Positions 29,599-52,109 of a DNA stretch of 64,000 nucleotides are shown here, piece after piece. Below the pieces are notes generated by a model. It was not told the origin of the DNA and ran no database searches. It worked only from the letters and a program-made list of their open reading frames with translations. Numbering within the stretch: the stretch's first letter is position 1; each line of letters starts with the position of its first letter. Made by a program: the position numbers and the translations under genes. The stretch comes from Actinomadura sp. HBU206391 (GTDB lineage Bacteria > Actinomycetota > Actinomycetes > Streptosporangiales > Streptosporangiaceae). The stretch covers positions 1-64,000 of the forward strand of contig NZ_JABVEB010000006.1 of NCBI RefSeq assembly GCF_014323665.1. Direction: 5' to 3'.

Positions 29599-29697
29599 CA
29601 CGTCTACCTTCGAGTCGGGGCCACCGATCCGAGCACGCCGCGGGTCGCGCGGGCGCGGGTTCTCACCGGTTCGGGTGCCGTATGCAACAGTATTGTT

Positions 29698-30183
29698 ATG
29701 GGCGCCTTGGATGAGCCATCCCGGCTGGTCGAGCTGGCGGCGGCTATCGACGACTTCGCGGGTACGTTCAACCAGGTATGGGAGCGCGCCCATCAGACCC
29801 CCACGACGCAGGTGCCGGCCACCCAGATGAGGGTTCTGTTCATCGTGGAACGGCGGGGCAGCGTCAACGTCAGCGGGCTGGCGGCCGAACTGGAGGCCTC
29901 GGTGCCCTCGGCCAGCCGCCTGTGCGACCGGCTGCAGGCCGGCGGTCTGCTCGTGCGTGACCCCGGCCCGAACCGTCGCGAGATCACGGTGCGGCTGAGC
30001 CGGGACGGCCAGAGCCTGCTCGACGAGGTACGGCGGGCACGCCGCGAGGAGCTCGAGCGGGTGCTGGCGGCCATGTCCCCTGGCTCGCGCACCGCCCTGC
30101 TCACCGGGCTGGCGCATTTTCACGCGGCGACCGGGCTCGGTCGGGCGAACGAGGCCTCCGACTCGGTCTCCAGACCTGCTTGA
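29698..30183 (+). CDS. MarR-family transcriptional regulator
   Basis: The 161-residue protein has the MarR winged helix-turn-helix: MRVLFIVERRGSVNVSGLAAELEASVPSASRLCDRLQAGGLLVR, then the beta-wing DPGPNRREITVRLS. Start ATG 29698 directly follows a near-palindrome (AACAGTATTGTT, 29686-29697) and has no ribosome site, so the transcript may be leaderless and self-regulated. It is divergent from the GAF-PP2C gene by about 100 bp and its likely target is that gene or itself. Confidence 0.88.
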   Translation: MGALDEPSRLVELAAAIDDFAGTFNQVWERAHQTPTTQVPATQMRVLFIVERRGSVNVSGLAAELEASVPSASRLCDRLQAGGLLVRDPGPNRREITVRLSRDGQSLLDEVRRARREELERVLAAMSPGSRTALLTGLAHFHAATGLGRANEASDSVSRPA

Positions 30184-30234
30184 TCATCCGAATTCGCACG
30201 GTGAGCAGCGGAGTCGTCGCACGCAGCGATAGTT

Positions 30235-30259
30235 GTTGCATGGCAAATGTCTTGGGTAT
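30235..30259 (+). promoter_or_regulatory. Putative SigB/SigF-type promoter for the RR-PP2C operon
   Basis: GTTG (30235-30238), a 15-bp spacer, then GGGTAT (30254-30259) fit the actinobacterial general-stress consensus GTTT-N14-16-GGGTAY with one mismatch. The first gene of the partner-switching operon starts at 30486, which leaves a leader of about 220 nt. Confidence 0.4.
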
Positions 30260-30485
30260 CGTGCCGATGCGAGGCTGAACGCCGGCGCGCTCCGGCTTGA
30301 TCGAAGGGGGCGCACCGACGAGCCGGGACGGGTACGGTGGCGGGATGCCCGATATGGGCTTTTTGCCCCCTGTCTGGAACCGGCGGCCGAACACCACTCC
30401 ACCTCCGGCGGCACGGCGGCCCATCCGCTGAGTCGCCGTCCATGCGAGCCGGAAGCCGGTTTCTCCACGAAAGGCTCAACCGCTT

Positions 30486-31700
30486 GTGAGCACCGTCAGT
30501 CGATCGCGGCCTCTGGCCGTCTCGGGCGCGGGGCAGGACGTTCTCGAGCTTCTGTTGATCGAGGACGATCCAGGTGACGCTTTCCTGGTCGAGGAGTTCC
30601 TCGAGGAGAGCGAGCTGGACGTACGGATGACGGTGGCGCAGAGCCTCGCCGACGCCCGGCGGCTGCTCATCTCCGAGGCCTCCGGACCGCAGTGCGTCCT
30701 GGCGGACCTCTCCCTGCCGGACGGCAGTGGGCTCGACATGCTGCGAGAGGTGCTCACCATGGCGCCGCGGGCGGCGGTGCTGGTGCTCACCGGCCTCAAC
30801 GACGCGCACGTCGGGGTGTCGGCGGTCGCCGCCGGCGCCCAGGACTACCTGGTCAAGCAGGACGTCGACGCCCCGCTCCTGGCCCGCGCCATCCGCTACG
30901 CGCTCGAGCGCAAGCGCGCCGACGAATCCGAGCGGCAGCTCGTCGAGGCGCGCATTCTGAGCCAGGAGAACGCCCGCCTGGAACGCGGCCTCCTGCCGGT
31001 CCCGTTGATCGAGGACGAGAACCTGCGGCATCACGCCCGCTACCAGCCCGGGCGCGAGCGGGCCCTGCTCGGCGGGGACTTCTACGACACCGTCCAGACC
31101 GAGGACGGCGCCATCCACGTCGTGATCGGCGACGTCAGCGGCCATGGCGCTGACGAGGCCTCACTCGGGGTTCGGCTGCGGATGGCCTGGCGCACGCTGG
31201 TGCTCGCGGGGCTCACCGGCGAGAAGCTCCTCGACACCCTCGACACCGTGCTGGCCCTGGAACGGTGGTCCGACGAGATCTTCACGACCCTCTGCATGGT
31301 CACCATCGATCCGTCCCGGCGAACGGCACTGATGTACCGGGCCGGGCACCCTCGGCCGCTGCTGTTCACCGAGTCCGGCGTCGACGCACTGCCCGACGAT
31401 CGGTGCGGGCCCGCCCTCGGGCTCATCCCCGGCGTCGGGTGGCCGATGACCACGATCGAGCTCGGCGAGTCCTGGGGACTCATGCTCTACACCGACGGCC
31501 TGATCGAGGGATACGCGGGCGAGGGCAGTGAAAGGCTCGACACCGAGGGCCTCGTGACCCTCACCCGGCAGATCCTCGGGCGCGGCATGACCGGCGGCGA
31601 AATGATCGACACGCTCGTGGCCGAGGTCGAGGCGCTCAACCAGGGCGTGCTGACCGACGACCTGGCGATACTGATGCTCGGGCGGGGAAGTGCCACATGA
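30486..31700 (+). CDS. Response regulator-PP2C phosphatase (RsbU/SpoIIE type)
   Basis: The 404-residue protein starts at GTG 30486. A receiver domain (about 18-140; LLLIEDDPGD acidic pair, phospho-Asp in VLADLSLPDGSG, LVLTGLND, Lys in YLVKQD) is joined by a short coiled-coil to a PP2C domain (about 180-404). The metal motifs are intact: LLGGDFYD, IGDVSGHG, LYTDGLIE, TDDLAILML. Such proteins dephosphorylate STAS anti-anti-sigma factors once their receiver is phosphorylated. It overlaps the histidine kinase gene by 4 bp, and that kinase is its likely phosphodonor. Confidence 0.93.
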   Translation: MSTVSRSRPLAVSGAGQDVLELLLIEDDPGDAFLVEEFLEESELDVRMTVAQSLADARRLLISEASGPQCVLADLSLPDGSGLDMLREVLTMAPRAAVLVLTGLNDAHVGVSAVAAGAQDYLVKQDVDAPLLARAIRYALERKRADESERQLVEARILSQENARLERGLLPVPLIEDENLRHHARYQPGRERALLGGDFYDTVQTEDGAIHVVIGDVSGHGADEASLGVRLRMAWRTLVLAGLTGEKLLDTLDTVLALERWSDEIFTTLCMVTIDPSRRTALMYRAGHPRPLLFTESGVDALPDDRCGPALGLIPGVGWPMTTIELGESWGLMLYTDGLIEGYAGEGSERLDTEGLVTLTRQILGRGMTGGEMIDTLVAEVEALNQGVLTDDLAILMLGRGSAT

Positions 31701-33478
31701 GGACCGACGAGATGCCGGTGCCATCCTCCGACCCGCCCCCCTCGGCGTCCGCCGACCTGACCGACGGCGGACCGGCCGACCCGTTGGACGACCGCGCCAC
31801 CGCTCTGGCCGGCGCGCTCGGGCCGCCGGTGCTCGCCCCGTTCATCCAGCCGGGCGAGGGCAGCAGGCTGAGCCGGGTGCGGCTCGGGCAGTGGTACGGC
31901 CTGGGCGGTGGGATCCTGGCCCTCCTGCTGATAGCCGTGCTCGCCCAGGCAGGGCTCTCGACTTACCAGCAGACCGTGGCACGCGACCTGCTCATCGAGA
32001 AGGTCGACCCTGCCGCGCTCCTGCAGGTGCAGCTCAGCGGTTCGATCGGCCGGCAGGACTCCACCATCCGGCAGTACGCGGAGTCCGGCGATCCGGCCCA
32101 GCTGGCCGCATACCGACAGACGATCACCGACCAGGCCCGTATCTCGGGGTCGATGCGGCGGCTGCTGGCCGATGTGCCCGATGCGGACCGCACCCTCGGT
32201 GACATCGACCGGGTCGAGGCCGCGGTCGCGAGCTGGCGTACCCGGTTCGCCGAACCGCTCGCCGCACCGGGCCGGCGCCCGGGGCGGCCCTCCCCGGACG
32301 GCGAGGAGCTCAGCCAGGAGTCGTTCGTTCAGATCCGGACGGCCAACGCCACCCTGCAGAAGAACCTGAGCGCTCTGCACACCACCTTCGCCGATCGGCT
32401 ACAGGCGCGGGTCGTGAACTTCTACTGGTCGTTCGCGGCCGCCGTGATCATCATCTTGGTCGTCGCGGTCGGGCTCGCCTGGGTACTCCGACGTACGGTG
32501 CTGCGCCCGGTGTCCTCACTCGCCACCAACGTCCGGGCCGTGGCCCAGGGGGATCTCGCCCACCCGCTCGACATCAACGGCCCGGCCGAGTTCGTCGAGC
32601 TGGCCGCCATCGTCGACGCCATGCGGCACCGGATCATGGACGAGTGGCGTTTCACCTCCGAGGCACGCCGCATGCTCGACGAGCAGGCCACCGAGCTGCG
32701 CCGCTCGAACGCCGAGCTGGAGCAGTTCGCCTACGTGGCCAGCCACGACCTCCAGGAGCCGCTGCGCAAGGTGGCGAGCTTCTGCCAGATGCTGGAGCGG
32801 CGGTACGGCGACCAGCTCGATGAGCGGGGCCGCCAGTACATCGACTTCGCCGTCGACGGGGCCAAGCGCATGCAGGCGCTGATCAACGACCTGCTCAACT
32901 TCTCCCGAGTCGGCCGGGTGGAGCGCCGCGAGGAATCGGTCAGCATGCAGAAGTCCCTGGACCGGGCCCTCTACAGCCTGGCCCAGTTGCGGGAGGACAC
33001 CGGCGCCGAGGTGACGTCCGACGAGCTTCCCGAGCTGCCCGGAGACCAGGGACAGTTCACCCAGTTGCTGCAGAACCTCATCGGCAACGCGCTCAAGTTC
33101 CACGGCGACGACCCGCCGCGCGTGCACATCGGCGCGCGGCAGGACGGTGCGATGTGGGAGTTCAGCTGCGCGGACAACGGGATCGGCATCGACGCCAAGT
33201 ATTCCGACCGCATCTTCCTCATCTTCCAGCGGCTGCACGGGCAGGACGTCTACGCCGGCACCGGCATCGGGCTCGCCATGTGCCGCAAGATCGTCGAACA
33301 CCACGGCGGCCGGATCTGGCTCGACACCGAGTCGGACCCGGACCGCCAGGGCACGACCATCCGCTGGACCCTTCCCGCGGCTACCCCCGAGCCGGCCGCG
33401 ACCCCCGACGTGGCCGGGGCCGGCGACTCAGACTCCGACTCCGCTGGGTCCGCCGACTCAGCCAGTACCGACGAATAG
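31697..33478 (+). CDS. Membrane sensor histidine kinase
   Basis: The 593-residue protein has a Pro/Asp-rich cytoplasmic lead (1-60), TM1 (68-86), an extracytoplasmic helical sensor of about 150 residues (CHASE3-like in size), and TM2 (about 243-264). HAMP, a HisKA box [16 protein letters not shown] with His 350, and a HATPase with N box LIGNALKF and G boxes NGIGID and GTGIGLAMC follow. The C-terminal tail is Asp/Ser-rich. It sits between an RR-PP2C and a stand-alone receiver in one operon, so it probably phosphorylates one or both. Confidence 0.93.
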
Positions 33479-33488
33479 GGCGACCGTG

Positions 33489-33926
33489 ATGACCGAGGCA
33501 GCCCGTCCCATCGAGGTCCTCCTCGTCGAGGACGACCCGGGCGACGTGCTCCTGACCAAGGAGGCGTTCGCCGACAACAAGGTGAGGAACAACCTCACCG
33601 TCGTCAGCGACGGCGAGGAGGCCACGGCCTACCTGCGGCGGGAGGGCGACTACGCCGACGCGCCGCGCCCCGACATGATCCTTCTCGACCTCAACCTGCC
33701 CCGCAAGGACGGCCGCGAGGTGCTCGAGGAGGTCAAGGCCGACCCCGAGCTGCGCTCGATCCCGGTGGTGGTCCTGACCACGTCCGACGCGGACGAGGAC
33801 ATCCTGCACAGCTACGATCTGCACGCCAACGCCTACGTCACCAAGCCGGTCGACTTCGAGCAGTTCATCCGCGTCGTGCGCCGGATCGACGACTTCTTCG
33901 TCACCGTCGTCAAGCTCCCCCGCTGA
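33489..33926 (+). CDS. Single-domain response regulator (Rcp1-like)
   Basis: The 145-residue protein is only a receiver: [18 protein letters not shown], phospho-Asp in [26 protein letters not shown], and [11 protein letters not shown]. It is of the Rcp1/CheY-like class that pairs with HisKA kinases whose H-box reads ASHDLQEPL, as the upstream kinase does. With no output domain, it may shuttle or drain phosphate in competition with the RR-PP2C. The start is taken as ATG 33489; GTG 33486 is possible. Confidence 0.92.
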
Positions 33927-34047
33927 CCGCACCCTTCCCCGGTCGTGACATGTAGGACTCGGGGACGGCGAGTGCGTCCATAGGCATCGCCACGACGCCC
34001 GATCACGGTCATCATGAGGATCGGGCTCACCGAGGGGGACGTGGCCG

Positions 34048-35121
34048 ATGGGGGTACGGGCGGCATCTCGGCGTGGATCATGGCTGGCGATGACGGCCAC
34101 CGCACTGGCGGTCACGGCCGGCTGCATGCCCGGCCCGTTATCGCCGCCGGCGGCCGAAGGCCCTTTGGGCAAGGGGGGCGCGCAGGCGGTGCGTGCGCAG
34201 CAGCGCGGCTTTGCGCTCCCGTCGTGGAGCGCAGGCGACTACGCCGGCCCGGAGGCCGCAGCCTATGTCAAGGCGATCGCCGACACCGGCGCCCGGTGGC
34301 TGCAGCTCAATCCCACCTGGTACCAGCAGAGCCCGCACGACGACGCGCTGCGCACCACCGGCGAGACGGCGAGCGACAACAGCGTGCGCCACATCATCCG
34401 GCTCGCCCGAGCTGCGGGGCTCAAGGTGCTGCTCAAGCCACATGTCGATCTGCTCGACGGGCAGGACCGGGCCACCATCAGACCCGCGGATCCGGGCCGC
34501 TGGTTCGCCGCCTACACCCGGTTCATCGTGCACTACGCCGAGCTGGCGAGGGAGTCGGGCGCCGCCGAGTTCGCGGTCGGCACCGAGCTCGCCGGGGTCT
34601 CGGGCGAGCGGGCCGAATGGCTGGCCGTCATCAAGGCGGTCCGGGCCCGCTTCGACGGGCCACTCGTCTACGCGGCCAACTACGACGAGTACCCGAATGT
34701 GCGGTTCTGGGACGCGCTCGATCTCATCGGAGTCGACGCGTACTGGCCGCTCGCGCAGGTCCCGACGACCGACCGGGCGGCGCTGCGGCGCGCCTGGGAG
34801 CCGATCGCGGCGGAGCTGGCGGCGTTCTCCGCCGCGCGGCACCGCAGGATCCTGTTCACCGAGGCCGGCTATGTCAGCCAGCAGGGCGCCACGACCCGGC
34901 CGTACTCATGGACGATCAGCGAGGTGCGCGGCGACGAGGAGCAGGCCGCCGCCTACCACGCACTGCTCGAGGGCTTCAGCGGCCGGACGTGGTGGGCCGG
35001 TGTCCACTGGTGGATGTGGGACGACTGGCCCGGAGCCGGTGAGACCCCGCACGCGCTGGCCTATTCGCCGCACCACAAGCCGGCCGAGCAGGTCGTTCGC
35101 AGATGGTGGCGGGGCCGGTGA
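34048..35121 (+). CDS. Glycoside hydrolase-like lipoprotein (GH113-like TIM barrel)
   Basis: The 357-residue protein has a signal peptide with lipobox AVTAGC (Cys 26). A (beta/alpha)8-barrel glycosidase pattern follows: RGFALPSW, ARWLQLNPTWYQQ, LKVLLKPHVDL, then FAVGTELAG (Glu 180, acid/base position) and ILFTEAGY (Glu 272, nucleophile position), and WWMWDDW near the end. These features match GH113 and related retaining barrels. It is probably anchored outside the membrane and trims a polysaccharide. It opens the exopolysaccharide-like locus and ends at a hairpin that includes its stop codon. Confidence 0.85.
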   Translation: MGVRAASRRGSWLAMTATALAVTAGCMPGPLSPPAAEGPLGKGGAQAVRAQQRGFALPSWSAGDYAGPEAAAYVKAIADTGARWLQLNPTWYQQSPHDDALRTTGETASDNSVRHIIRLARAAGLKVLLKPHVDLLDGQDRATIRPADPGRWFAAYTRFIVHYAELARESGAAEFAVGTELAGVSGERAEWLAVIKAVRARFDGPLVYAANYDEYPNVRFWDALDLIGVDAYWPLAQVPTTDRAALRRAWEPIAAELAAFSAARHRRILFTEAGYVSQQGATTRPYSWTISEVRGDEEQAAAYHALLEGFSGRTWWAGVHWWMWDDWPGAGETPHALAYSPHHKPAEQVVRRWWRGR

Positions 35122-35139
35122 GCGGGGGTCACCGGCCCC
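35111..35139. terminator. Bidirectional hairpin overlapping a stop codon
   Basis: GGGGCCGGTGA (35111-35121), whose last three bases are the stop of the glycosidase gene, pairs with TCACCGGCCCC (35129-35139) across a 7-nt loop. It lies between two convergent genes, so it can end transcription from either side. Confidence 0.75.
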
Positions 35140-35182
35140 GGACCTGTTCTCCGAGTGACTGGGCGGCTAGGGCACTAGGGGC

Positions 35183-37030
35183 CTAGGGGAGGACGACGGA
35201 CGTCGGGCTCACGAACGTGTAGCCCAGGGCCCGGATGCCCTGCACGGTCTCGCGCAGCGGGGCCACCGGGTAGTACGGGTGGTAGAAGAAGCTGGCGAAG
35301 CCGTCGCGTACGGCCAGGTTCAGCTTGGCGGAGTTGATCATGTCGGCGGGTAGCCGCGGCGGACGGTTGTTGTAGGAGTCGGGCTCGTAGTTGCCCAGGT
35401 TCTCAGGGATCACCTTCGAGCCGTAGACGTCCTTGACCGGATAGGGGAAGAACTGGCCCATGTAGACCTGCGGGTTGATCGGCGCGGGGGTGAGCTGACC
35501 GGCGTAGTAGAGGCTGCGCTCGTAGCGTGCCGTGAAGTGCTGGTTGATCACGCCGTAGTCGGTGGCGGACGCCGCGTAGTGCGGTGTCGTCCACAGCTTC
35601 GGCGTGGGCAGCAGATTGAGCAGGAACGCGGTCTTGGCGCTGACGATGCGGGAGTTCGCCCAGGCGGCCGAGTCCTCGGCGACCGGGCCGTCGTAGATCA
35701 CGTTGTCGGCGCTGTCGACGTGCGCCCGGAAGAACTCGAAGTCGTCGCCGGTGACGCCGTTGTAGGGGTTGTCGACGTTGCCGTACTGGTGGGTGTAGCC
35801 GTGATCGATGATCGTGCCGCCGTGAGCGAGCATGTACCGCACCGCCGCCATGACGGCGGGCGCCTGCTGCAGCGTCCTGGTCTCGGGGACGCCGTCGTTG
35901 TAGGCCCCCTTGGGGTCGGTGTAGACCGGGATCAGCTGGAAGCCGTACGGGATGCCCTCCTCGGTGAGGTACTCGGCGATGTCCATGAGCTGCTCGGGGT
36001 CGCTACCGGGGCTGATGTCCTCCAGCCGGAGCAGGGCCCGATGCCGGGTGGGCGTGGTCGGTTCGAGTGCGTCGAACAGCAGGTCGTAGAAGGCGATGGC
36101 CCGGTCGGACTCGTTGAAGTAGGTGTAGGGGATCTCACCGATGTAGGTGAGGTTGCTCGACCGGACCGCCCAGGGGAATCGCGTGTTCGGTGACGTGCTC
36201 GTGTCGACCGCCTCGGCCAGGCTTGTCACGGCCGGATAGCCGGGGCCGGTGAGGACGTTCGGCCGGAGGATCCCGCTGTCGGCGCCGGCCGGGATGTTGC
36301 GGCCGAGCGGCTGGGTCTTGTAGTCGACCTGGGTCACCTGGCCGACCGAGCCGCCGACGTCGAAGTAGGACGTGGTCGGATCCCAGCCGTAGCGGGCCGT
36401 GAACGCCGGAACGCCCACCTTGCCGGCGAGGTTCCAGATGTTGTCGTTCATCCAGATGACCGGCTGGGTGGAGGTGGCAACGTCGGTGTAGAACGCGTTC
36501 GGGATCGCGTCGGGGATGTCACCCCCGTAGTAGGTGGAGCCGATGTAGATCGTCGCGGTGAACTGGTTGATCTGCCCGGAGGTGTACTGCGACACCGGCT
36601 TGGTGGTCACGGTGCCGAAGTGCCCGGCCAGGTTGGCGGTGGCCATCGCGTACAGCTCGCCCAGGAACCCGTACGGCCCCGCCGTGTCATAGAGGACCAG
36701 GGTCGTGGGCTGGCTCGCGGCCCGCAGGGCGTTGGCCTTGCCCGGTACGGCGCCGACGCTCTTGACCGCTCTGGCCACGGTCGCCGAGAGCGCCGTGGGC
36801 GCTGTGGTCCGGCGCTGCTTGCGACGGGCCACATCGGCCGAGCGCTGCTTCGTGGCCCACTTGGGCAGCGCCGTGGTGACGGACCTCGGCTGCACGAACG
36901 CGGTGCCGGCCTCCCCCGGGGCCGGACGGCCGCCGGGCGAACCGGCGGCACTGCCGGCGGTGGCCGCCAGCAGTCCGGCGGCCGCGATGATTACCGCGAC
37001 CGCCTTCCCCCGTTCCCATCGAATTCTCAT
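35183..37030 (-). CDS. Secreted DUF2334 polysaccharide deacetylase-like protein
   Basis: From ATG 37030 the 615-residue protein has a clear signal peptide (MRIRWERGKAV, hydrophobic to about residue 29). A basic linker and an N-terminal domain of unknown type (about 100-330; LVLYDTAGPYGFLGELYA) follow. A DUF2334 domain is next: LLRLEDISPGSDPEQL with the metal Asp, GIPYGFQLIPVY, and IIDHGYTHQYG with the His pair. DUF2334 is related to NodB-type deacetylases, so removal of acetyl groups from an extracellular polymer is plausible. It is divergent from the glycosyltransferase operon and convergent with the glycosidase. Confidence 0.85.
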   Translation of the reverse strand: MRIRWERGKAVAVIIAAAGLLAATAGSAAGSPGGRPAPGEAGTAFVQPRSVTTALPKWATKQRSADVARRKQRRTTAPTALSATVARAVKSVGAVPGKANALRAASQPTTLVLYDTAGPYGFLGELYAMATANLAGHFGTVTTKPVSQYTSGQINQFTATIYIGSTYYGGDIPDAIPNAFYTDVATSTQPVIWMNDNIWNLAGKVGVPAFTARYGWDPTTSYFDVGGSVGQVTQVDYKTQPLGRNIPAGADSGILRPNVLTGPGYPAVTSLAEAVDTSTSPNTRFPWAVRSSNLTYIGEIPYTYFNESDRAIAFYDLLFDALEPTTPTRHRALLRLEDISPGSDPEQLMDIAEYLTEEGIPYGFQLIPVYTDPKGAYNDGVPETRTLQQAPAVMAAVRYMLAHGGTIIDHGYTHQYGNVDNPYNGVTGDDFEFFRAHVDSADNVIYDGPVAEDSAAWANSRIVSAKTAFLLNLLPTPKLWTTPHYAASATDYGVINQHFTARYERSLYYAGQLTPAPINPQVYMGQFFPYPVKDVYGSKVIPENLGNYEPDSYNNRPPRLPADMINSAKLNLAVRDGFASFFYHPYYPVAPLRETVQGIRALGYTFVSPTSVVLP

Positions 37031-37406
37031 GATCGTAACCCCCGCCTTTCTTGCGGTGTGTTGACAGACGCGAAGCGCACAAGCGAAGTATGAACTGAAG
37101 AACGGGAAATCCACCAGCAATAGTTGAAGCCGATCTCGGCCACCGTAATGCCCGGCAATAGGAAATCGCTTTCCGTCTGTACCACGGAAGTATCCGATAG
37201 GCAATCCATCCGGACTACATCGCCCGACAGTGGCCGCAGATACCGGCTAACCTTCGCTCAGCGCTCCGTTCGGGGTACTTTGCCTCCGTAAAGCACGGCG
37301 GGTCGGGGTGGAAGGGGCCGATGGGGGGAGCCCTGGGTCCACGTCGCCAAGATCCGAATCGGGAAGGGCGATCGAACGGTCGCCGCATTTCTGGACGGGG
37401 TCATTA
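37031..37406. promoter_or_regulatory. Divergent intergenic region of the polysaccharide locus
   Basis: About 376 bp between the DUF2334 gene (minus) and the small membrane protein gene (plus), AT-richer than flanking DNA. Promoters for both directions must be here. I see no clean consensus sites and no persuasive gene. Confidence 0.4.
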
Positions 37407-37628
37407 ATGTACGCCAAGCCTTCCATTGGCCTGCTCGCCGTAGCCGGGGCGGCCACCATGCCCACGGCCACCCCGACGTTCCGCGTCGCCAGGCTGTTGC
37501 TCCAGATCACCGGGGTGGGCTTCGGCCTCTACTGCGCCGGTGCCGTCGTGCTCTTCCTCGTGGGGTGCTGGATGCGGTGGCGCGACGCCGTCGAGCGCCG
37601 TCGCGGCGATGCGGTGGAGGGCCTGTGA
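37407..37628 (+). CDS. Small membrane protein upstream of the glycosyltransferase
   Basis: The frame from ATG 37407 gives 73 residues with one strong membrane helix (about 38-58, GVGFGLYCAGAVVLFLVGC) and a basic C-terminal tail. An in-frame start at 37308 would add 33 Gly/Ser-rich residues; ATG 37458 would shorten it. Its stop overlaps the GT2 start (GTGA, 37625-37628), so the two are translationally coupled. By position it could be an accessory subunit of the synthase, as PgaD is for PgaC, but there is no sequence signature for that. Confidence 0.6.
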   Translation: MYAKPSIGLLAVAGAATMPTATPTFRVARLLLQITGVGFGLYCAGAVVLFLVGCWMRWRDAVERRRGDAVEGL

Positions 37629-38866
37629 CCTCGGATTTCGCGATGGCGGGCAGTGTCGCGATCATCGTCTTGGCCGTCACGTACAACACGGGCATGTTCG
37701 GTCTGTCCCGGCGGCGGCACCGGCGTGCCGAAGGTCGGTCGCGGCCCCGCCTGTACGTCTTCATCCTCGCCTGCCTGAACGAGGAGAAGGTCATCGCGGC
37801 GAGTCTGGAACGCATCACCTCGCTGCACGGTGACAATTTCGTGGCCATGGTCATCGACGATGCCTCTGACGACGGCACCGCACGGGTCGTCCGCGACATC
37901 GGTTCCCCGAAGGTGGCGCTTTACCAACGGAAGCTGCCGAATGCACGACGCGGAAAGGGTGCGGCGCTCAATGCCGGACTACGTCGTTTGCGGGATGCGA
38001 AAATTGTCCGTCGCTATGATCCAGACGATGTGATCGTCTGTGTGGTGGATGCGGACGGGCGGCTCGATCCACATATTCTCCAGGAAGTCAACCCGCATTT
38101 TGACGACCCGACTACGGGCGCCGTACAAGTAGGCGTCCGTATGTACAACCGGAAACAGGGTCTGCTGGCCCGGCTCCAGGATATGGAGTTCGTGGTGTAC
38201 GGCGACATATTCCAGAGCGCGCGCCAGCACATCGGCAGCGTGGGGATGGGCGGCAACGGGCAGTTCATGCGGCTGTCCGCCCTCGATTCGCTTCCGGGTG
38301 ATCCGTGGAGCGACTGTCTCACCGAGGATCTGGATCTCGGCGTACGGCTCCTCGCGCAGGGATGGCGCAACAGCCACTGCCTCACCGCGGCCGTCCACCA
38401 GCAGGCCGTGCTGTCCCTCGGCCGGCTGCTGCGGCAGCGGTCCCGGTGGTTCCAGGGGCACATGCAGGCCGCCCGCCTGGCGCCCCTCATCCTGCGGAAG
38501 ATAGCCCCGCGCCCGGCCGTCGACCTGCTGTATCACCTGTCGAGCCCGGTGCTTCTGCTGCTCACCTCGCTGCTGCCGCTGTCGTTCCTCGTGGCGTTCG
38601 CCGGAACGGTCATCGCGTCGATCGTGAGCGGGCATGTGCTGCTGTCGCCCTGGTGGCTGCCCTGGTTCTACCTGATGACCTTCGGCGTCGCGAGCGCGTA
38701 CACCTACGTGTACCGCAAGCGCGAGCCGGACCTCGGGATCCTGCGATCCCTTCTGCTCGGGCACGTCTACGTGCTCTACGGCTACATCTGGTTCGTCTCC
38801 GGATGGTGGGCGGTGGGCCGCACCGTCAGGGGCCGGCAGACGTGGCTTAAGACCGCGCGCACCTGA
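37625..38866 (+). CDS. Processive family 2 glycosyltransferase (polysaccharide synthase type)
   Basis: Starting at GTG 37625 the protein has 413 residues: an N-terminal membrane helix, a cytoplasmic GT-A domain and three or four C-terminal helices. The processive GT2 signature D,D,D,QxxRW is complete: VIDDASDDGT, VVDADGRLDP, TEDLDLGVRL and QRSRWFQGH. GGNGQFMRLS precedes the third Asp. This resembles synthases of poly-GlcNAc, hyaluronan or cellulose type. It is followed at 57 bp by a UDP-GlcNAc 2-epimerase, which suggests a HexNAc polymer containing ManNAc; that is inference. Confidence 0.92.
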   Translation: MTSDFAMAGSVAIIVLAVTYNTGMFGLSRRRHRRAEGRSRPRLYVFILACLNEEKVIAASLERITSLHGDNFVAMVIDDASDDGTARVVRDIGSPKVALYQRKLPNARRGKGAALNAGLRRLRDAKIVRRYDPDDVIVCVVDADGRLDPHILQEVNPHFDDPTTGAVQVGVRMYNRKQGLLARLQDMEFVVYGDIFQSARQHIGSVGMGGNGQFMRLSALDSLPGDPWSDCLTEDLDLGVRLLAQGWRNSHCLTAAVHQQAVLSLGRLLRQRSRWFQGHMQAARLAPLILRKIAPRPAVDLLYHLSSPVLLLLTSLLPLSFLVAFAGTVIASIVSGHVLLSPWWLPWFYLMTFGVASAYTYVYRKREPDLGILRSLLLGHVYVLYGYIWFVSGWWAVGRTVRGRQTWLKTART

Positions 38867-38923
38867 GCGCGACCGATCGCCCACAGGTTCCGCCCGCGCC
38901 TACGTCACCCAGAGGAGAACGTC

Positions 38924-40105
38924 ATGTCCACAGCCATGCGCCAGGACCCGGCGGGGGAGCCCGAGTCCGGGGAGGTGATACGCGCCATGATCGTCCTTGG
39001 CACCAGACCCGAGGCGATCAAACTGGCGCCGGTCGTACGCGCCATGACCCGTACGGACGGATTCGTCCCGCTCGTCATCAACAGCGGACAGCATCGGGAG
39101 ATGCTGGAGCAGATGCTCCATCTGCTCGGCGTCGGCGTGCAGGTCGACCTGGCCGTGATGCGCGACCGGCAGCGGCTGTCGGAGCTCACCGGCCGGCTCG
39201 TCACCGGGCTGAACGACGTCGTCCGTGCCCGCAGGCCCGACCTGGTCATCGTCCAGGGCGACACCACCACCGCGCTGTGCGGCGCCCTCGCGGCCGCGTA
39301 CGAGAAGGTGCCGGTCGCCCATGTCGAGGCGGGGTTAAGGACCGGCGACGCCTACAACCCGTTCCCGGAGGAGATCAACCGCCGGCTGATCGGCCGGATC
39401 GCCCGATGGCACTTCGCGCCGACCCAACGTGCCGCGCACCACCTGTACGCGGAGGGCGTGCCGGCCGAGCACGTGATCGTCACCGGCAACACGGTCATCG
39501 ACAACCTGCACTGGATCCTGGCCGGCGGCGGAGGCACCTCGGCGTTCCGCAGCGCACGGCGCAGGCTGCTGGTGACCCTGCACCGCAGGGAGAGCCAGGG
39601 CACGGACATGCGCGGCATGGCGCGGACGCTGCGGCGGCTCGCCGACCGCAGTGACTGCGAGGTGCTGCTGCCACTGCACAAGAGCCCGGCCGTACGGGAG
39701 TCGCTGCTGCCCGAACTCGTGGGCCACCCGCACATCATCGTGACCGAACCCCTCGGCTACGCCGACTTCGCCGCGACCCTGGCGGCCTGCGACGTGGTCC
39801 TGACGGACTCCGGCGGAGTTCAGGAAGAGGCGCCGACCCTTGGCAAGCCCGTTCTCGTCCTACGCGCGACCACCGAACGACCCGAGGCCGTGGAGGCGGG
39901 CGTGGCCCGCCTGGTCGGGACGGACGCCGACGAGGTCTTCGCCGCGGCGACCCAGCTGCTCGACCATCCGCTCGAATACCAGCGGATGGCGGGAGCCGCC
40001 AACCCGTTCGGCGACGGGCGGGCCAGCGAGCGCATTCTCGCGGAACTCGACCGTGACCGCCGCCGGCCCGGCGCCGATGCCTTGCTGGCGACCGCCTTGG
40101 ATTGA
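38924..40105 (+). CDS. wecB: UDP-N-acetylglucosamine 2-epimerase (non-hydrolysing)
   Basis: The 393-residue protein has the characteristic opening MIVLGTRPEAIKLAPVV (after about 20 leader residues), HVEAGLRTGD, PFPEEINRRL, VTGNTVIDNL, LVTLHRRE, and TDSGGVQEEAP...GKPVLVLRATTERPEAV. It interconverts UDP-GlcNAc and UDP-ManNAc to feed polymer synthesis. There is no UDP-ManNAc dehydrogenase (wecC) next to it, so the product is probably used as ManNAc. A 5' AGAGGAG ribosome site precedes ATG 38924. Confidence 0.93.
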   Translation: MSTAMRQDPAGEPESGEVIRAMIVLGTRPEAIKLAPVVRAMTRTDGFVPLVINSGQHREMLEQMLHLLGVGVQVDLAVMRDRQRLSELTGRLVTGLNDVVRARRPDLVIVQGDTTTALCGALAAAYEKVPVAHVEAGLRTGDAYNPFPEEINRRLIGRIARWHFAPTQRAAHHLYAEGVPAEHVIVTGNTVIDNLHWILAGGGGTSAFRSARRRLLVTLHRRESQGTDMRGMARTLRRLADRSDCEVLLPLHKSPAVRESLLPELVGHPHIIVTEPLGYADFAATLAACDVVLTDSGGVQEEAPTLGKPVLVLRATTERPEAVEAGVARLVGTDADEVFAAATQLLDHPLEYQRMAGAANPFGDGRASERILAELDRDRRRPGADALLATALD

Positions 40106-40147
40106 CAGACTGGGCGGCCACCGACCACCCCGAGCCCCGGTGGCCTC

Positions 40148-40894
40148 ATGAAGCCGTTCTCGTCTCTGCACGAACGGTGGGCGACGCCCACCCGCGGCGC
40201 GACTCTGCGCGGCGGCGGTCCCGGCCGTCGCCGCTGGTGGCTCCGGCCGCGGGTGGGCTGCCCGGCCGTTCTGGCGCTCGCCGGATTACTGGGGATCCTG
40301 GTGCCGGCGCTCCTGCCCGACTCCGGTGACGGCGTGCTGCACCGGTGGCGGGACGGCACGACGCACGGGCCGTGGCGCGCGGTCTTCGACGGTGAGGGGA
40401 TCAGCGGCGTTCGGGACGGCGTCATCGTGCTGCGGCCGAAACCCGCCGTGCAGCCGGCCGAGACCCACGCGTGCCTGGTCGTGTCCCGCAAGACCTATCA
40501 CGACATGGATCTGAGCATCCGGTTCCGTACGACCGCCCAGCTCCGGCAGCCGCAGCCGAACCCCTGGGAGGTCGCCTGGGTGGTCTGGGCCTATACCGAC
40601 GAGCACCACTTCTATTACCTCACCCTCAAGCCCAACGGCTGGGAGCTCGGCAAGCGCGACCCGGCCTATCCCGGCGGGCAACGGTTCCTCGCCACGGGCG
40701 ACCCGGAGTTCCCGGTGGACCGCTGGTACCAGGTCAAGATCAGTCAGCGGGGGGCCACCATGACGGTCCGGATAAAGGACCGCGAGCTGACCGTCCACGC
40801 CGACGAGGAGCGCCCCTACCTCTCGGGTGCCGTCGGGGTCTACACCGAGGACGCCGAGACCGAGTTCCGCTCCATCAAGGTGAGCCCGCGCTGA
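40148..40894 (+). CDS. Membrane-anchored LamG/DUF1080-like carbohydrate-binding protein
   Basis: The 248-residue protein has a basic N-terminus, a membrane helix near 38-55, and an extracytoplasmic beta-sandwich. HDMDLSIRFRTTAQ, WVVWAYTDEHHFYYLTLKPNGWELGK, WYQVKISQRGATMTVRIKDREL and SGAVGVYTEDAETEFRSIKV match the pattern of concanavalin-like DUF1080/3-keto-disaccharide hydrolase-like domains. It probably binds or processes the surface polysaccharide made by the upstream genes. It starts 42 bp after the epimerase gene, so it likely shares their transcript. Confidence 0.78.
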   Translation: MKPFSSLHERWATPTRGATLRGGGPGRRRWWLRPRVGCPAVLALAGLLGILVPALLPDSGDGVLHRWRDGTTHGPWRAVFDGEGISGVRDGVIVLRPKPAVQPAETHACLVVSRKTYHDMDLSIRFRTTAQLRQPQPNPWEVAWVVWAYTDEHHFYYLTLKPNGWELGKRDPAYPGGQRFLATGDPEFPVDRWYQVKISQRGATMTVRIKDRELTVHADEERPYLSGAVGVYTEDAETEFRSIKVSPR

Positions 40895-40906
40895 CCGTGG
40901 AGGCGG

Positions 40907-42307
40907 TCAGATCTCGTCGGGCAGGGGCATCGCGAGGGGCAGCCGGAGGACGAACCGGGAGCCGCCGGTCGGTGACTCCTCGACGTCGAGCGTGCCGCAG
41001 TGGGCGTGCGCGATCTCGCGGGCGATCGCCAGGCCGAGCCCGGTGCCTCCGTGGTCGCGGCTGCGAGCGGAGTCCAGCCGGGTGAACCGCTGGAACACGC
41101 GCTCCCGGTCGACCTCGGCGATTCCGTCTCCGTCGTCCATCACGCTCAGTTCGGCCTTGCCTCCGTTGTGACGCACCTCGGTCCACACCGCGTGGCGGGC
41201 GTGACGCTGCGCGTTGTCGAGCAGGTTGGTGAGGACCCGGAGGACCTGGGCGCGCACGGCGTTCACGATCGCGCCGGGGTCGAGCCGGAGATGCACGGTG
41301 AGCCGGTCCGAACGCCGGGACACCTCGGTGCGGACCAACTCGGCCAGGTCCAGCCGCTCCAGCGTCGCCGGGTGGTTCACCCCCACGCGCGCCAGCAGCA
41401 GCAGGTCCGTAGTGATCGCTTCGAGCCGGTCCACGTCGCTCAGGGCCCGGTCGAGCACCTCGTGCAGATCGGTCTCGTCCGGGTGCAGCTGAGCCTCCTC
41501 CAACTGGGTGCGCAGCCCGGCGATCGGGGTGCGCAACTCGTGCGAGGCATCGGAGGTGAACTGCCGCTGCTGATCGAAAGCCGTCTGCAACCGGCACTTG
41601 GCCTGCTCCAGACGGTCGAGCGTGCTGTTGATCGCCCGGGCGAGCTTGGCGATCTCGTCCGCACCGTCCGGCTCGGGGACCCGGTTGCTCATGTCCTTGA
41701 CATTGATGGAGGCCAGCTCGGCGCGGATGGCCTCGACCGGCTCGAGCGTCTGACCTGTGATCTTCCAGGTCGCCAACGAGGCGAGGGCGATCAACGAGAC
41801 CACCTGTATGCCGAAGAGCGAGTCGAAGAACCCCGTGGACAGCACGCCCGGAGCCCGGCGGCCCGCGTACACGACCGGCGAGTCCGGCGAGGACCGGACG
41901 CGCATCGCAGAGAGGCGCAGGCAGCCCATGTGCGAATGCGCACAGACCTGCAGATCCTTGCGGGGGTGCCGCACGCCGGGCCAGACGTCCGTTAAGGGCG
42001 GCAACCCGCGGATGGCGTGCGACGACGCGATCACATGGTGGCCCGGCGCCACGACCTGCACCAGGTCGACGCCGGCGACGCGGGGCTCCACAATGGTGGT
42101 GATGGTCCCGCTCCGGACGGCCCGCGCGGTGACCGCTGACTGCTGCCGGACCTCCCGCCACTCGGTGCTCGTCAGCGCATGGCGTGCGACCGTGCCGGCG
42201 ACCAGCCCGGCGGGTACGAGCAGGAGCACCGCCGCAACGGTCACGAGCACGGTCATCCGGGCGCGGAGAGAATGGGGGCGCATCCGGACACGCCGGGTCG
42301 CGGTCAT
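40907..42307 (-). CDS. Orphan sensor histidine kinase
   Basis: From ATG 42307 the protein has 466 residues: TM1 near 18-38, an extracytoplasmic sensor of about 125 residues, TM2 near 168-188, HAMP, H-box FTSDASHELRTPIAGLRTQL, and HATPase with N box NLLDNAQRHA and G boxes DDGDGI and GTGLGLAI. The sensor has two cysteines in a CAHSHMGC arrangement that could bind metal or form a disulfide. No response regulator is adjacent; the neighbours are a polysaccharide gene and an XRE regulator. Its partner must be elsewhere. A TTG start at 42343 is less likely. Confidence 0.9.
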   Translation of the reverse strand: MTATRRVRMRPHSLRARMTVLVTVAAVLLLVPAGLVAGTVARHALTSTEWREVRQQSAVTARAVRSGTITTIVEPRVAGVDLVQVVAPGHHVIASSHAIRGLPPLTDVWPGVRHPRKDLQVCAHSHMGCLRLSAMRVRSSPDSPVVYAGRRAPGVLSTGFFDSLFGIQVVSLIALASLATWKITGQTLEPVEAIRAELASINVKDMSNRVPEPDGADEIAKLARAINSTLDRLEQAKCRLQTAFDQQRQFTSDASHELRTPIAGLRTQLEEAQLHPDETDLHEVLDRALSDVDRLEAITTDLLLLARVGVNHPATLERLDLAELVRTEVSRRSDRLTVHLRLDPGAIVNAVRAQVLRVLTNLLDNAQRHARHAVWTEVRHNGGKAELSVMDDGDGIAEVDRERVFQRFTRLDSARSRDHGGTGLGLAIAREIAHAHCGTLDVEESPTGGSRFVLRLPLAMPLPDEI

Positions 42308-42440
42308 GGAGCCCAGCTTCACCACCCCGGGCCAAGGCAACAAGGATGCTCTTCACATGGGAAAACGCGACCGTGGGAGCCGCATATCCTGGGAGTCTTA
42401 CGCCCACCCTGAAGGCTCGAATCGGTCGTACCGTTGCTTC

Positions 42441-43298
42441 ATGGACTGCGACAAGCTGCTCGGTGAGTTTCTCCGGGCCAAGCGCGAGGCCATCAGCCCC
42501 GATGACGTGGGACTCCTGCACTTCGGCCATCGTCGAACACCCGGGCTGCGCCGTGAAGAGGTGGCCATGCTGGCGGGGGTCAGCACGGACTACTACATGC
42601 GCTTGGAGCAGGGGCGAGAACGCCATCCCTCCGAGCAGGTGGTCAGCGCGCTCGCACGCGTCCTGCATCTGGACTCCGACTCCACGGCGTACATGCACGA
42701 ACTCGCGCATCCGGGGCCGCGGCAGCGCCGCACCACGGGCCGGGTGGAGCGGGTCAGCCCAGGCCTGCTCCGGCTCATGGACAACTGGACGCGCACCCCG
42801 GCGCTGGTGCTCGGCGCGCGGTTGGACGTGCTGGCCAGGAACCCGCTGGGCTCCGCCCTCTACGAGGGACTGCACCACAACGACAACCTGATGCGGCTGA
42901 CCTTTCTGAATCCGAAGGCGCGGGAGTTCTTCCAGGACTGGGACATGGTCGCGATCAACAAGGCGGCCCACCTGCGCGCGGCGGCGGGCACGGGTCTCGA
43001 CGACCCCTACCTTCCCGAGCTGGTCGACGAGCTCTCGGTCGGGAGCGCGGAGTTCCGTCGGCTGTGGGCGCGCCAGGACGTACGGAGCAAGACCCGTGCG
43101 TCGCACAGCTTCCGCCACCACCAGGTCGGTGATCTGACCCTGGCGTACGAGTCGTTCAGCATCAACGGGGCTCCCGGCCAGCAGCTCATCGTCTATCAGG
43201 CCGAGCCCGGCAGCACGTCCGAGCAGGCCCTGGCCCTGCTGGGCGGCGCCGTCATCGAGCACGCGTCACCTGAACACGCGCACCATCTGACCTTCTGA
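42441..43298 (+). CDS. XRE-family regulator with MmyB-like ligand-binding domain
   Basis: The 285-residue protein has the signature GHRRTPGLRREEVAMLAGVSTDYYMRLEQGRERHPS, the helix-turn-helix of this family (about 30-70). A MmyB-like PAS-fold domain follows (LLRLMDNWTRTPALVLGARLDVLARNPLGSAL; LTLAYESFSINGAPGQQLIVYQAEPGS). Such regulators often repress a neighbouring oxidoreductase gene, but none is present here. It is divergent from the orphan kinase by 133 bp. The stop codon lies inside a 19-bp tandem duplication. Confidence 0.92.
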   Translation: MDCDKLLGEFLRAKREAISPDDVGLLHFGHRRTPGLRREEVAMLAGVSTDYYMRLEQGRERHPSEQVVSALARVLHLDSDSTAYMHELAHPGPRQRRTTGRVERVSPGLLRLMDNWTRTPALVLGARLDVLARNPLGSALYEGLHHNDNLMRLTFLNPKAREFFQDWDMVAINKAAHLRAAAGTGLDDPYLPELVDELSVGSAEFRRLWARQDVRSKTRASHSFRHHQVGDLTLAYESFSINGAPGQQLIVYQAEPGSTSEQALALLGGAVIEHASPEHAHHLTF

Positions 43299-43329
43299 AT
43301 CACCTGACCACTTCTGAATCACCTGACCA
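43292..43329. repeat. 19-bp tandem duplication across the XRE stop codon
   Basis: CTTCTGAATCACCTGACCA occurs at 43292-43310 and again, perfectly, at 43311-43329. The first copy contains the stop TGA (43296-43298). Confidence 0.95.
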
Positions 43330-43350
43330 CCTGACGCGGGCATCGCCCGG

Positions 43351-43391
43351 GAACCGGGCCGGCCACCGGGGGCGGGCGGCCGGCCCGGTTC
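43351..43391. terminator. Strong bidirectional hairpin
   Basis: GAACCGGGCCGGCC (43351-43364) pairs perfectly with GGCCGGCCCGGTTC (43378-43391), 13-nt loop, between the convergent XRE and PAP2 genes. Confidence 0.8.
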
Positions 43392-43400
43392 CAAACCCGG

Positions 43401-44204
43401 TCAGGTGCGGTCCGGCGCCTTGCTCGGATCGCCGCTCGGTGCGATCTCGGGTGCCGCCTCCGGTTCGACGCCCTCGATCGCGGGCGTGGCGGGCGCGCGG
43501 CCCTCGCTTCGCCGCCACGTCTCGAAAGCGGTGGTCGTCGCGATCACGACCGCGAGCCCGAACACCCAGCCCGCGAGTACGTCACTGACGTAGTGCACGC
43601 CGAGCGCCACCCGGCAGAAGCCGGCGGCCACGGCCACCACGGCGGCGACCGCCCACACCGCCTTCCGCCACGAGGCGGGGATCACCGGCAGCAGGATGAG
43701 GACGATCACAAGGCAGCCGAGCGCGGCGGTCATCGCGTGACCGGAGGGGAACGAGCCGCCGGGCGCGTGCGCGATGGGCGACTCCAGGTCGGGCCGGGGG
43801 CGATCCACGACGACCTTGAACAGCAGGCCGAGCAGTCCGCCGACGACCAGCGTGGTCATGGCCCACACGGCCAGCCGCCGCGCTCCGCGCACGAACAGCC
43901 AGATCGCCAGACCGCCGATGATCAGCCGGAACACCCAGGCGTGGAAGATGTACGAGGTGGCCTGCAGCGGATGGACGAAGCCGCGGTGATCGAGCACGTA
44001 CTCGTTGAGCGTGCGGGTGGCGTCCTCGTCGAGCCTCTCCAGCGGTCCCCACTTGGTCTCCACCAGGGCCAGCAGTCCGGCGAACGGCACCAGGACGAGG
44101 AACGCGGCCAGGCTGGCGAGCGTCAACCGCAGGCCCAGCCGATGGTCGGGGTTCAGTCGCCGGTCCGACCAGGAACGCGGCGACGTCCGGGATTTCGTTG
44201 TCAC
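43401..44204 (-). CDS. PAP2-family membrane phosphatase
   Basis: From GTG 44204 (GGGGCGG upstream) the protein has 267 residues; ATG 44237 would add 11. It has about five or six membrane helices and the complete lipid-phosphatase signature: KVVVDRPRP, PGGSFPSGHA and RVALGVHYVSDVLAG. The family removes phosphate from phosphatidic acid, undecaprenyl pyrophosphate or related lipids on the outer leaflet. The C-terminal tail is acidic and Pro-rich. A role in recycling undecaprenyl carrier for the nearby polysaccharide genes is possible but unproven. Confidence 0.92.
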   Translation of the reverse strand: MTTKSRTSPRSWSDRRLNPDHRLGLRLTLASLAAFLVLVPFAGLLALVETKWGPLERLDEDATRTLNEYVLDHRGFVHPLQATSYIFHAWVFRLIIGGLAIWLFVRGARRLAVWAMTTLVVGGLLGLLFKVVVDRPRPDLESPIAHAPGGSFPSGHAMTAALGCLVIVLILLPVIPASWRKAVWAVAAVVAVAAGFCRVALGVHYVSDVLAGWVFGLAVVIATTTAFETWRRSEGRAPATPAIEGVEPEAAPEIAPSGDPSKAPDRT

Positions 44205-44330
44205 GCCGCCCCATCTACCCGACCGATCGCGGAGCATGCATGAGGGCCGGACGTGCTGTGCGGCCGAAGGTCATCGCGTTGTACGGCCGCCCGGTTGTAC
44301 GGCAGTGCCCGGCATGTCGTCAGGACGTGC

Positions 44331-44410
44331 TACTGTTTGGACAGTTGCAGTTGTGGTTCCCATGGACTTTGTGTGCGCCTGCTGGTTAACCTCAGGCGCT
44401 TTTTGTTTTT
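44331..44410 (+). promoter_or_regulatory. Cold-shock gene leader with intrinsic terminator / possible small RNA
   Basis: TACTGT at 44331-44336 is a plausible -10 element. GCGCCTG (44375-44381) and CAGGCGC (44393-44399) form a stem whose loop holds GGTTAACC, followed by TTTTTGTTTTT (44400-44410). This is a textbook intrinsic terminator, rare in such GC-rich DNA, placed 85 bp before the cold-shock ATG. It would yield a roughly 65-nt leader RNA unless read through. Confidence 0.65.
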
Positions 44411-44495
44411 CCGGATCTCCGGACGGGGCGATCATCACGGCGACACCAGGCCCGCGATGTGCGGGCTGACAGCACTGCCCCAGAAGGAGATAGAT

Positions 44496-44699
44496 ATGGC
44501 AACCGGTACCGTGAAGTGGTTCAACGGCGAAAAGGGTTTCGGCTTCATCTCGCAGGATGACGGCGGCGCCGACGTCTTCGCCCACTACTCGAACATCAAC
44601 GGTCAGGGCTTCCGTGAGCTTCTGGAGGGCCAGAAGGTGGAGTTCGACGTCACGCAGGGCCAGAAGGGCCTGCAGGCCGAGAACATCCGCACGGTCTGA
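44496..44699 (+). CDS. Cold-shock protein (CspA family)
   Basis: The 67-residue protein is a complete cold-shock domain: [15 protein letters not shown] (RNP1), DVFAHYSNI (RNP2-like), [21 protein letters not shown]. It binds single-stranded nucleic acid and acts as an RNA chaperone. ATG 44496 follows AGAAGGAGATAGAT, a very strong ribosome site. The gene is flanked by a terminator in its leader and another after its stop, and is followed by a DEAD-box helicase gene, a pairing common in cold-shock RNA metabolism. Confidence 0.97.
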
Positions 44700-44723
44700 G
44701 AACTCACGCAGAACACGCGGCCG

Positions 44724-44746
44724 GGCCCGCACCGTCGGTGCGGGCC
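44724..44746 (+). terminator. Terminator of the cold-shock gene
   Basis: GGCCCGCACC (44724-44733) pairs with GGTGCGGGCC (44737-44746) over a 3-nt loop, 25 bp after the stop codon. Confidence 0.85.
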
Positions 44747-45066
44747 TTCGGCTGTCGCTTCAACGCGGCACGCTGCGGCCCCTCTGGGCCGCGCGCCGCG
44801 TGCACGACGGGAGATGCCGCTCACACGGCGGGTCCAGGCGCGGTTGAAGCACCGCGGCCGACCAGGCCGAGCGGGAGGGCCGCGCGACCGTCCGCAGCCC
44901 CTGAGCACGCCGGCGCGTCGGCGCGACTCTGTCCTCCCCACTGTTTCGATCTCCACCACGGCTCGTCGGCGCGATCTGCGCTCGGGCCGCCATGCGCAAC
45001 GTCGTCTCGACGCGCCCCAAGACGCTCGTGAAGCCCCAGAAAGGGCAGATCATCAGTACCGAACGT

Positions 45067-50802: not shown

Positions 50803-51360
50803 TCACGGGCCGGTGCCTCCGCCGGCCTGCACGCCGAGGTCGGACCCGGCGGATGTGGTCAGCAGGAAGTCCGGCTTGGCGCCGGCCCAGCTCTGGATGC
50901 TCAGCGAGTTGAGTGCCGCGACGATCCGCTTCTCCTCGTAGACGAAGTGCGTCTCCAGCAGGGCGGCCAGCGTGTCCAACTCGGAGCGCACGCGCTTCGC
51001 CTCGTCCGGACCCGGATCCGCCGCCGCTCCTAGGCCGCCGAGCAGTTCCTCCAGCCTGAGCAGGGTCCCGGTCACCAGTTGGTGGTCGCGTCCCAGCTCC
51101 TCGAGCACGGGGCGCAGTTCGGGGAACTGCTCCGCGAGGACGGGGAACGCCCCGTCGTCCTCGCCGGTGTGATGCCGGCTCAGTGCCGAGCAGAACGTCA
51201 GGCAGTGCGCCCGCAGCTCCCGTGGCCGCGCGCCGCCGTCGAGGTAGGAGTCGACGTCCGCACGGAGCCGGTCCAGCTCCTCGCGGAGCCAGAGGTGGAC
51301 TTCGATCAGCTGATTCCCGAACGCCGTGAGGCGGCCGTTCGGTTCGGTGGGTGTTTCCAT
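50803..51360 (-). CDS. Hemerythrin-like metal-binding protein
   Basis: The 185-residue protein from ATG 51360 is a four-helix hemerythrin HHE domain: His in EVHLWLREELDRL, HCLTFCSALSRHHTGEDDGAFPVL, DHQLVTGTLLRLEELL, and THFVYEEKRIVAAL. These His and Glu residues are the expected di-iron ligands. Actinobacterial relatives bind O2 or NO or protect against oxidants. The C-terminal 30 residues are Gly/Ser-rich. An upstream in-frame ATG at 51393 lacks a ribosome site. Confidence 0.87.
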   Translation of the reverse strand: METPTEPNGRLTAFGNQLIEVHLWLREELDRLRADVDSYLDGGARPRELRAHCLTFCSALSRHHTGEDDGAFPVLAEQFPELRPVLEELGRDHQLVTGTLLRLEELLGGLGAAADPGPDEAKRVRSELDTLAALLETHFVYEEKRIVAALNSLSIQSWAGAKPDFLLTTSAGSDLGVQAGGGTGP

Positions 51361-51533
51361 GGAGGTCCCATGATTCGGCGCCTCCATGCCCACGACGGAC
51401 TCGTTGCCGGGTACACGCGACGCTGACGTGGGATTTCATCATCGTTCGGACGGGCCGTCAAGCGATCACCGATGTGACCGGCCACAATCCGCTGCATACG
51501 AACGGCACACGGCTCCGGAACCACGTCCGACGA

Positions 51534-52019: not shown

Positions 52020-52109
52020 GGCGACACCTCCTCACCACGGCCCTTCTCGCCGCATGGGGTCGCCGGTCTATTCTCTTTCCGGGGCGGATGGATGGGGAAC
52101 GGGGTCGTC

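Follow-up and report, generated by a model that had tools for sequence, protein, structure and literature searches.

Which polymer is made by a six-gene unit in which a single membrane glycosyltransferase of family GT2 stands beside an epimerase, a deacetylase-like protein and a glycoside hydrolase, and which nucleotide sugar feeds it? The unit lies in a 64,000 nt stretch of DNA from Actinomadura sp. HBU206391 (NZ_JABVEB010000006.1, assembly GCF_014323665.1), hereafter the window, in which a first-pass annotation had proposed a set of genes that make, modify and trim an exopolysaccharide supplied with uridine diphosphate (UDP)-N-acetylmannosamine (UDP-ManNAc). The six genes fill positions 34048-40894; those named by the annotation are all present there and the boundary of the unit matches exactly. 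We consider it probable that the unit is an exopolysaccharide system of the synthase-dependent type that polymerises UDP-ManNAc, the chain being deacetylated and also trimmed by a hydrolase of family GH113. Soil actinomycetes, including many Streptomyces, share this six-gene set, which most likely serves to make, partly deacetylate, hold and trim a ManNAc surface chain.

Four of the genes form an operon-like run on the forward strand. It begins with a 73-aa membrane protein, recognized by direct reading, with a single transmembrane (TM)-like segment at residues 30-57 (37407..37628), and continues with a processive-type membrane GT2 of 413 aa with a GTG start and TM-like segments at both ends (37625..38866; PF13641, 92.6 bits), a non-hydrolysing UDP-N-acetylglucosamine (UDP-GlcNAc) 2-epimerase of the WecB type (38924..40105; TIGR00236, 428.2 bits, cut-off 210.15) and a membrane-anchored jelly-roll surface protein, LamG-like below, with a TM-like segment at residues 34-60 (40148..40894; PF06439, 41 bits, cut-off 26.8). 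The small-protein gene overlaps the GT2 start by 4 nt, as it does in 44/80 of the loci described below, and the coordinates leave gaps of ~57 nt between GT2 and WecB and ~42 nt between WecB and the LamG-like gene. A longer mechanical open reading frame (ORF) of the GT2, from 37565, was not judged a likely start, and the GTG at 37625 was taken. On the reverse strand a secreted DUF2334 protein with a NodB/CE4-like deacetylase domain at residues ~328-615 is encoded (35183..37030, ATG at 37030; PF10096, 172.4 bits, cut-off 26). The annotation had rightly counted this deacetylase-like gene in the set; its strand needs correction, being divergent from the GT2 operon. Next to it, on the forward strand, lies the gene of a GH113-family lipoprotein with a lipobox at Cys26 (34048..35121; PF22612, 195.8 bits, cut-off 27).

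A conserved neighbourhood among relatives had been named beforehand as a point on which the proposal would stand or fall, and the neighbourhood proved to be kept across relatives, whereas its flanks were not. A genome scan across GTDB gave 136 GT2 relatives, the closest named one being Actinomadura alba (GT2 identity 89%), and the best 80 by GT2 similarity were kept as loci, with mechanical gene calls in the relatives. Near the GT2 of these 80, DUF2334 is found in 80/80, WecB in 76/80, the LamG-like gene in 76/80 (one miss, L092, sits near a contig end) and GH113 in 68/80. A family hidden Markov model (HMM), up to 12 seed rows of which were drawn from the same 80 loci, detects the small membrane protein just upstream of the GT2 in 77/80, with 1 match among control fragments; tblastn detects it in 36/80 only, and the loci missed by the HMM (L131, L134 and L135) are among the most divergent. 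GH113 adjoins DUF2334 whatever its strand: the two genes share a strand in 59 loci and differ in 9. The flanking kinases, response regulators, MmyB-like regulator and PAP2 gene, in contrast, recur in at most 2/80 loci, and the DEAD helicase in 3/80. These genes are found again in an unchanged order in Actinomadura, Actinocorallia, Streptomyces and Kitasatospora, which shows that their grouping is not due to chance.

In a family-level sample of 200 genomes, in which a relative is a full-length GT2 at 46% identity or more, 13 genomes carry the GT2 (own genome included), with DUF2334 nearby in 13/13, the LamG-like gene in 11/13 and WecB in 10/13; several of the 80 loci come from the same genomes as these 13, and the two sets are not independent. 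A phylum-level sample of 396 genomes, searched at a GT2 threshold of E up to 1e-60, gave 13 genomes with the GT2, again own included. Since the 12 others hold WecB nearby in 9, DUF2334 in 7, the LamG-like gene in 3 and GH113 in 0, GT2 and WecB look like the oldest pair, with DUF2334 next; the LamG-like gene, the small protein and GH113 were detected in narrower sets.

The epimerase is the partner that bears on the donor sugar. Its residues R28, K33, D113, E135, E149 and H220, which by matching to the E. coli enzyme we take to be the catalytic positions, are invariant in 76/76 rows (here and below, truncated rows or rows <70% of query length were dropped and the window row is included). WecB is not adjacent to the GT2 in 4/80 loci, and three of these genomes were searched (G200, G201 and G202; the fourth, L130, was left out): each holds elsewhere a WecB 65-68% identical to that of the unit, together with a 34-36% paralog. 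A 44-row maximum-likelihood tree places the unit WecBs and the three displaced copies on one side of a 100/100 branch and ten paralogs on the other, and a second WecB of the host genome branches apart from the unit clade. The WecBs beside 14 distant GT2s fall on the unit side of this branch in 12 cases and with the paralogs in 2 (L178 and L053). The unit WecB clade thus travels with the unit GT2, with a shared history and retention even at a distance, and in this respect the proposed UDP-ManNAc supply has gained support. One row was left out of the tree, a broken copy from Actinobaculum sp. oral taxon 183 (L135 / L146), whose unit WecB carries an in-frame TGA in one genome, by decay or sequencing error.

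The GT2 carries the motifs D78/D79, D142-A-D144, T233-E-D235 and Q271-xx-R274-W275, invariant in 13/13 rows, and its Pfam matches are to GT2 families only, with no MshEN domain in its 413 residues. It scores 65.1 bits against TIGR03937, the model of poly-N-acetylglucosamine (PNAG) synthases (PgaC/IcaA/MatB; cut-off 422.3), 22.4 bits against the bacterial cellulose synthase model TIGR03030 (cut-off 699.1) and 45 bits against the NodC model, far below its cut-off. The nearest NCBIfam model is NF053846, the XrtP-associated glycosyltransferase, at 290.1 bits, likewise under its cut-off of 520. At 65 of 422 and 22 of 699 bits, the claim that the locus differs from matAB and cslA-glxA holds.

Two partners were identified largely by their folds. 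The AlphaFold2 model of the DUF2334 protein (mean predicted local distance difference test, pLDDT, 79.7) finds its top matches among CE4/NodB deacetylases, e.g. 3rxz (Z 19.3, root-mean-square deviation 2.7, 220 residues). D338 and H414 are invariant in 80/80 rows and H410 is kept in 99%, and we take the three to be the Asp-His-His metal-site motif of the NodB fold; a hydrophobic segment lies at the N-terminus (8-31). With both fold and metal site in place, the protein is a predicted CE4-like deacetylase of the NodB fold. Agd3 (CE18) is not among the top 50 fold matches listed, which excludes nothing. For the LamG-like protein (mean pLDDT 84.3) the closest fold is CBM66, in 4azz (Z 20.5, deviation 2.3, 156 residues). 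That it is a surface protein stands, and the annotation is corrected to a jelly roll closest to CBM66 and anchored by a single TM segment; glycan binding is presumed from this modelled fold. An enzyme role may also be considered, PF06439 being named for a 3-keto-disaccharide hydrolase.

The nearest solved chains to the GH113 lipoprotein are endo-beta-1,4-mannanases (4cd6, E 1.8e-32), with both mannanase glutamates aligning with its catalytic Glu180 and Glu272, and C26, E180 and E272 are invariant in 68/68 aligned rows. Its place in the family follows from the PF22612 score above the cut-off and both catalytic glutamates; hydrolysis of mannan is predicted. H132, W91-Y92-Q93, A209, W233 and Y275 remain typical of the unit enzymes and uninterpreted. 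In a genus-level sample of 295 Streptomyces genomes, 23 carry the unit GT2 (20 at 64-67% identity and 3 at 45-46%), and GH113 scores form two groups, one at 184-204 bits and one at 105 bits or less, a split defined after the search. The high-score, unit-type GH113 occurs in 23/295, and 22 of these also hold the GT2, on the same contig and within 5 kb (Fisher p 6e-31, not corrected for shared ancestry). The exceptions are G676, with a unit-type GH113 at a contig edge and no GT2, and G804, with a GT2 and no GH113.

Based on the partner enzymes we propose a division of labour. In the cytosol, WecB would turn UDP-GlcNAc into UDP-ManNAc, which the GT2 together with the 73-aa membrane protein would polymerise and export across the membrane. 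On the outer side, some of the N-acetyl groups would be taken off by the secreted DUF2334 enzyme, the anchored CBM66-fold protein would keep the chain at the surface, and the GH113 lipoprotein would cut or trim it. The proposal of UDP-ManNAc as donor follows the same reasoning from GT2-WecB linkage as was applied to E. coli NfrB, for which a ManNAc polymer was deduced in this way (PMC8669469) and found genetic support (PMC8669472). GH113 enzymes being known to act on beta-1,4-mannan, a beta-1,4 linkage is by analogy the most likely one, which would make the product a beta-1,4-mannosaminan that is deacetylated in part. More tentatively, and with somewhat less than even confidence, we suggest that actinomycetes make an undescribed, partly cationic beta-1,4-linked polymer of ManNAc and mannosamine (ManN), and that the hydrolase dedicated to it comes from a GH113 branch whose substrate changed from the mannan of plants to a mannosaminan made by the cell itself.

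How well does a ManNAc homopolymer fare against other products? One bifunctional GT2 might alternate ManNAc with GlcNAc or another sugar, in the manner of hyaluronan synthase; the unit holds one glycosyltransferase only, single GT2 synthases alternating two sugars are known, and UDP-GlcNAc is always present. We nevertheless think such a heteropolymer unlikely, as WecB is the only donor enzyme carried and has been kept through great divergence, and the bonds cleaved by GH113 mannanases are mannosyl links (PMC9032380). Still less probable is a PNAG- or chitin-like GlcNAc polymer, with WecB lying there by chance and serving another pathway such as the teichoic-acid linkage unit: the characterised kin of the GT2 do include PgaC/IcaA and NodC, yet its scores of 65 and 45 bits are far below their cut-offs. 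UDP-ManNAc has other uses in Gram-positive walls, but the host has a second WecB, and the unit WecB forms a clade of its own and is kept at another place in genomes where it does not stand beside the GT2. The unit could also be an island for degrading or scavenging glycans, its GH113 enzyme and deacetylase digesting foreign mannan and its GT2 being incidental. GH113 enzymes are indeed mannanases (PMC9032380) and that of the unit is extracellular by its lipobox, but the ten unit and flanking proteins scanned gave no Pfam match to a sugar transporter, binding protein or catabolic enzyme, and loci without GH113 still keep GT2, DUF2334 and WecB, which leaves this explanation with very little probability.

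Several points weigh against a UDP-ManNAc-polymerising system trimmed by GH113. GH113 is not essential, since 12/80 loci lack it and the search of the 12 more distant ones did not detect it, and its specificity for an amino sugar is hypothetical. D134 and D230 were considered as acidic positions specific to the unit enzymes that might suit an amino sugar and were rejected, the same Asp residues being present in seven other Streptomyces GH113 proteins (type 2). In PMC9032380 a single Streptomyces GH113 was assayed (S. davawensis CCK30803.1), which may or may not be of the unit type; the protein was soluble and showed no activity on any mannan. A role of WecB in some other pathway is possible, though the genome has a second WecB. 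The 80 loci, as the best of 136, are biased towards close relatives and include many close kin. The distances of five unit proteins correlate (r 0.87-0.95), a figure that has no background control and is not used as evidence of interaction.

The divergent intergenic region (37031..37406), ~376 nt between the two starts, presumably holds the promoters of both transcription units; the Rfam gathering scan of 30000-46000 gave 0 matches. A survey of conserved 8-mers used 70/80 loci, 10 being omitted with DUF2334 on the other strand or spacing out of range. Judged by eye, these 8-mers are mostly codons of the small membrane protein, ATGTACGG being its start, and TATTGACA (24/70 loci), a possible -35 box, is the sole one that may be regulatory.

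Around the unit, two SpoIIE-type phosphatases, a CHASE3 histidine kinase and a response regulator adjoin it at 28408-33926 of the window, and those tested are not conserved with it; a HAMP histidine kinase follows directly after the LamG-like gene (40907-42343, reverse strand), with homologues in 2/80 loci; and a mechanical ORF of 1455 aa with AAA and protein kinase domains, its start uncertain, spans 51351-55718. In 45-48 of the 80 loci (Streptomyces, among L060-L128), the unit lies near proteins of ~486 aa and ~1541 aa, at a similar distance in most. These look to us like glutamate synthase subunits, and perhaps mark a fixed chromosomal site for the unit. Five Planomonospora and Planobispora loci (L123, L125, L127, L129 and L130) have two tandem DUF2334 genes each and no GH113. 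The host genome itself has a second DUF2334 gene (G000:C368, L054:8983-10869), 58% identical to that of the unit; its neighbours are a GT4 glycosyltransferase, a DUF2203 gene and a PadR regulator, and neither the unit GT2 nor WecB lies in its surroundings.

If the proposal is correct, filamentous actinomycetes, including ~8% of the sampled Streptomyces species (23/295), carry a surface glycan besides PNAG and the CslA glycan, and the unit is a ready enzyme set for a ManNAc/ManN polymer, comprising synthase, epimerase, deacetylase, hydrolase and binder. Such a polymer would be a substrate class worth trying on the GH113 enzymes that were inactive in the published survey (PMC9032380), in which an unassigned Bacteroidetes clade is noted as lying near GT2 genes; a shift of GH113 to mannosaminan would explain GH113 enzymes with no known substrate near such genes.

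Streptomyces MatAB, which makes PNAG, and CslA-GlxA resemble the unit in using a membrane GT2 for a surface glycan in filamentous actinomycetes (PMC5972031). MatB is bifunctional, with glycosyltransferase and deacetylase domains (PMC5972031). The unit GT2 falls short of the cut-offs for PNAG and cellulose synthases, and the unit proteins gave no Pfam match to a GlxA-like oxidase. The four clusters of an Actinoplanes study are of the Wzx/Wzy or GtrA type. True members of the XrtP-associated GT2s (NF053846; L049 at 676.8 and L050 at 642.6 bits) likewise stand beside a WecB, and the L049 locus has a choice-of-anchor P protein and no detected DUF2334 or LamG homologue. Because GT2s of this type (L049, L050, L051 and L056, scored for the first two) lie beside a unit-side WecB, with the choice-of-anchor P protein at L049, our data suggest that XrtP loci too may use UDP-ManNAc. 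The Aspergillus galactosaminogalactan cluster (Agd3, Ega3) and its bacterial kin follow the same make-modify-trim scheme, pairing a deacetylase with a dedicated hydrolase, which in Aspergillus is GH114 and not GH113 (PMC7229062).

The PF10096 search also matched a protein of B. subtilis, which we take to be YdaL. B. subtilis YdaJKLMN and Listeria Pss are, like the unit, synthase-type exopolysaccharide systems of Gram-positive bacteria, the Listeria polymer being a beta-1,4-ManNAc chain (cited in PMC5422440) with alpha-1,6-galactose. Both use a degenerate-GGDEF receptor of cyclic diguanylate, for which neither the unit nor its scanned flanks gave a Pfam match, and where the unit has GH113 they have YdaJ, a 'putative glycosyl hydrolase', and PssZ, a GH126 enzyme (PMC7479077). 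The E. coli Nfr/NGR system shares with the unit a processive GT2 with DxD, TED and QxxRW motifs and a WecB partner, on which the E. coli GT2 depends; a ManNAc polymer is proposed there (PMC8669469, PMC8669472). Unlike NfrB, the unit GT2 lacks an MshEN domain, and in the unit a deacetylase, a GH113 enzyme and a CBM66-fold protein come in addition. No description of the six-gene unit was found in the literature searched, most subscription papers lying outside that search. The set is apparently unnamed, distinct from MatAB, CslA-GlxA, the XrtP-associated loci and Nfr, and akin to the ManNAc polymer systems of Listeria and E. coli.

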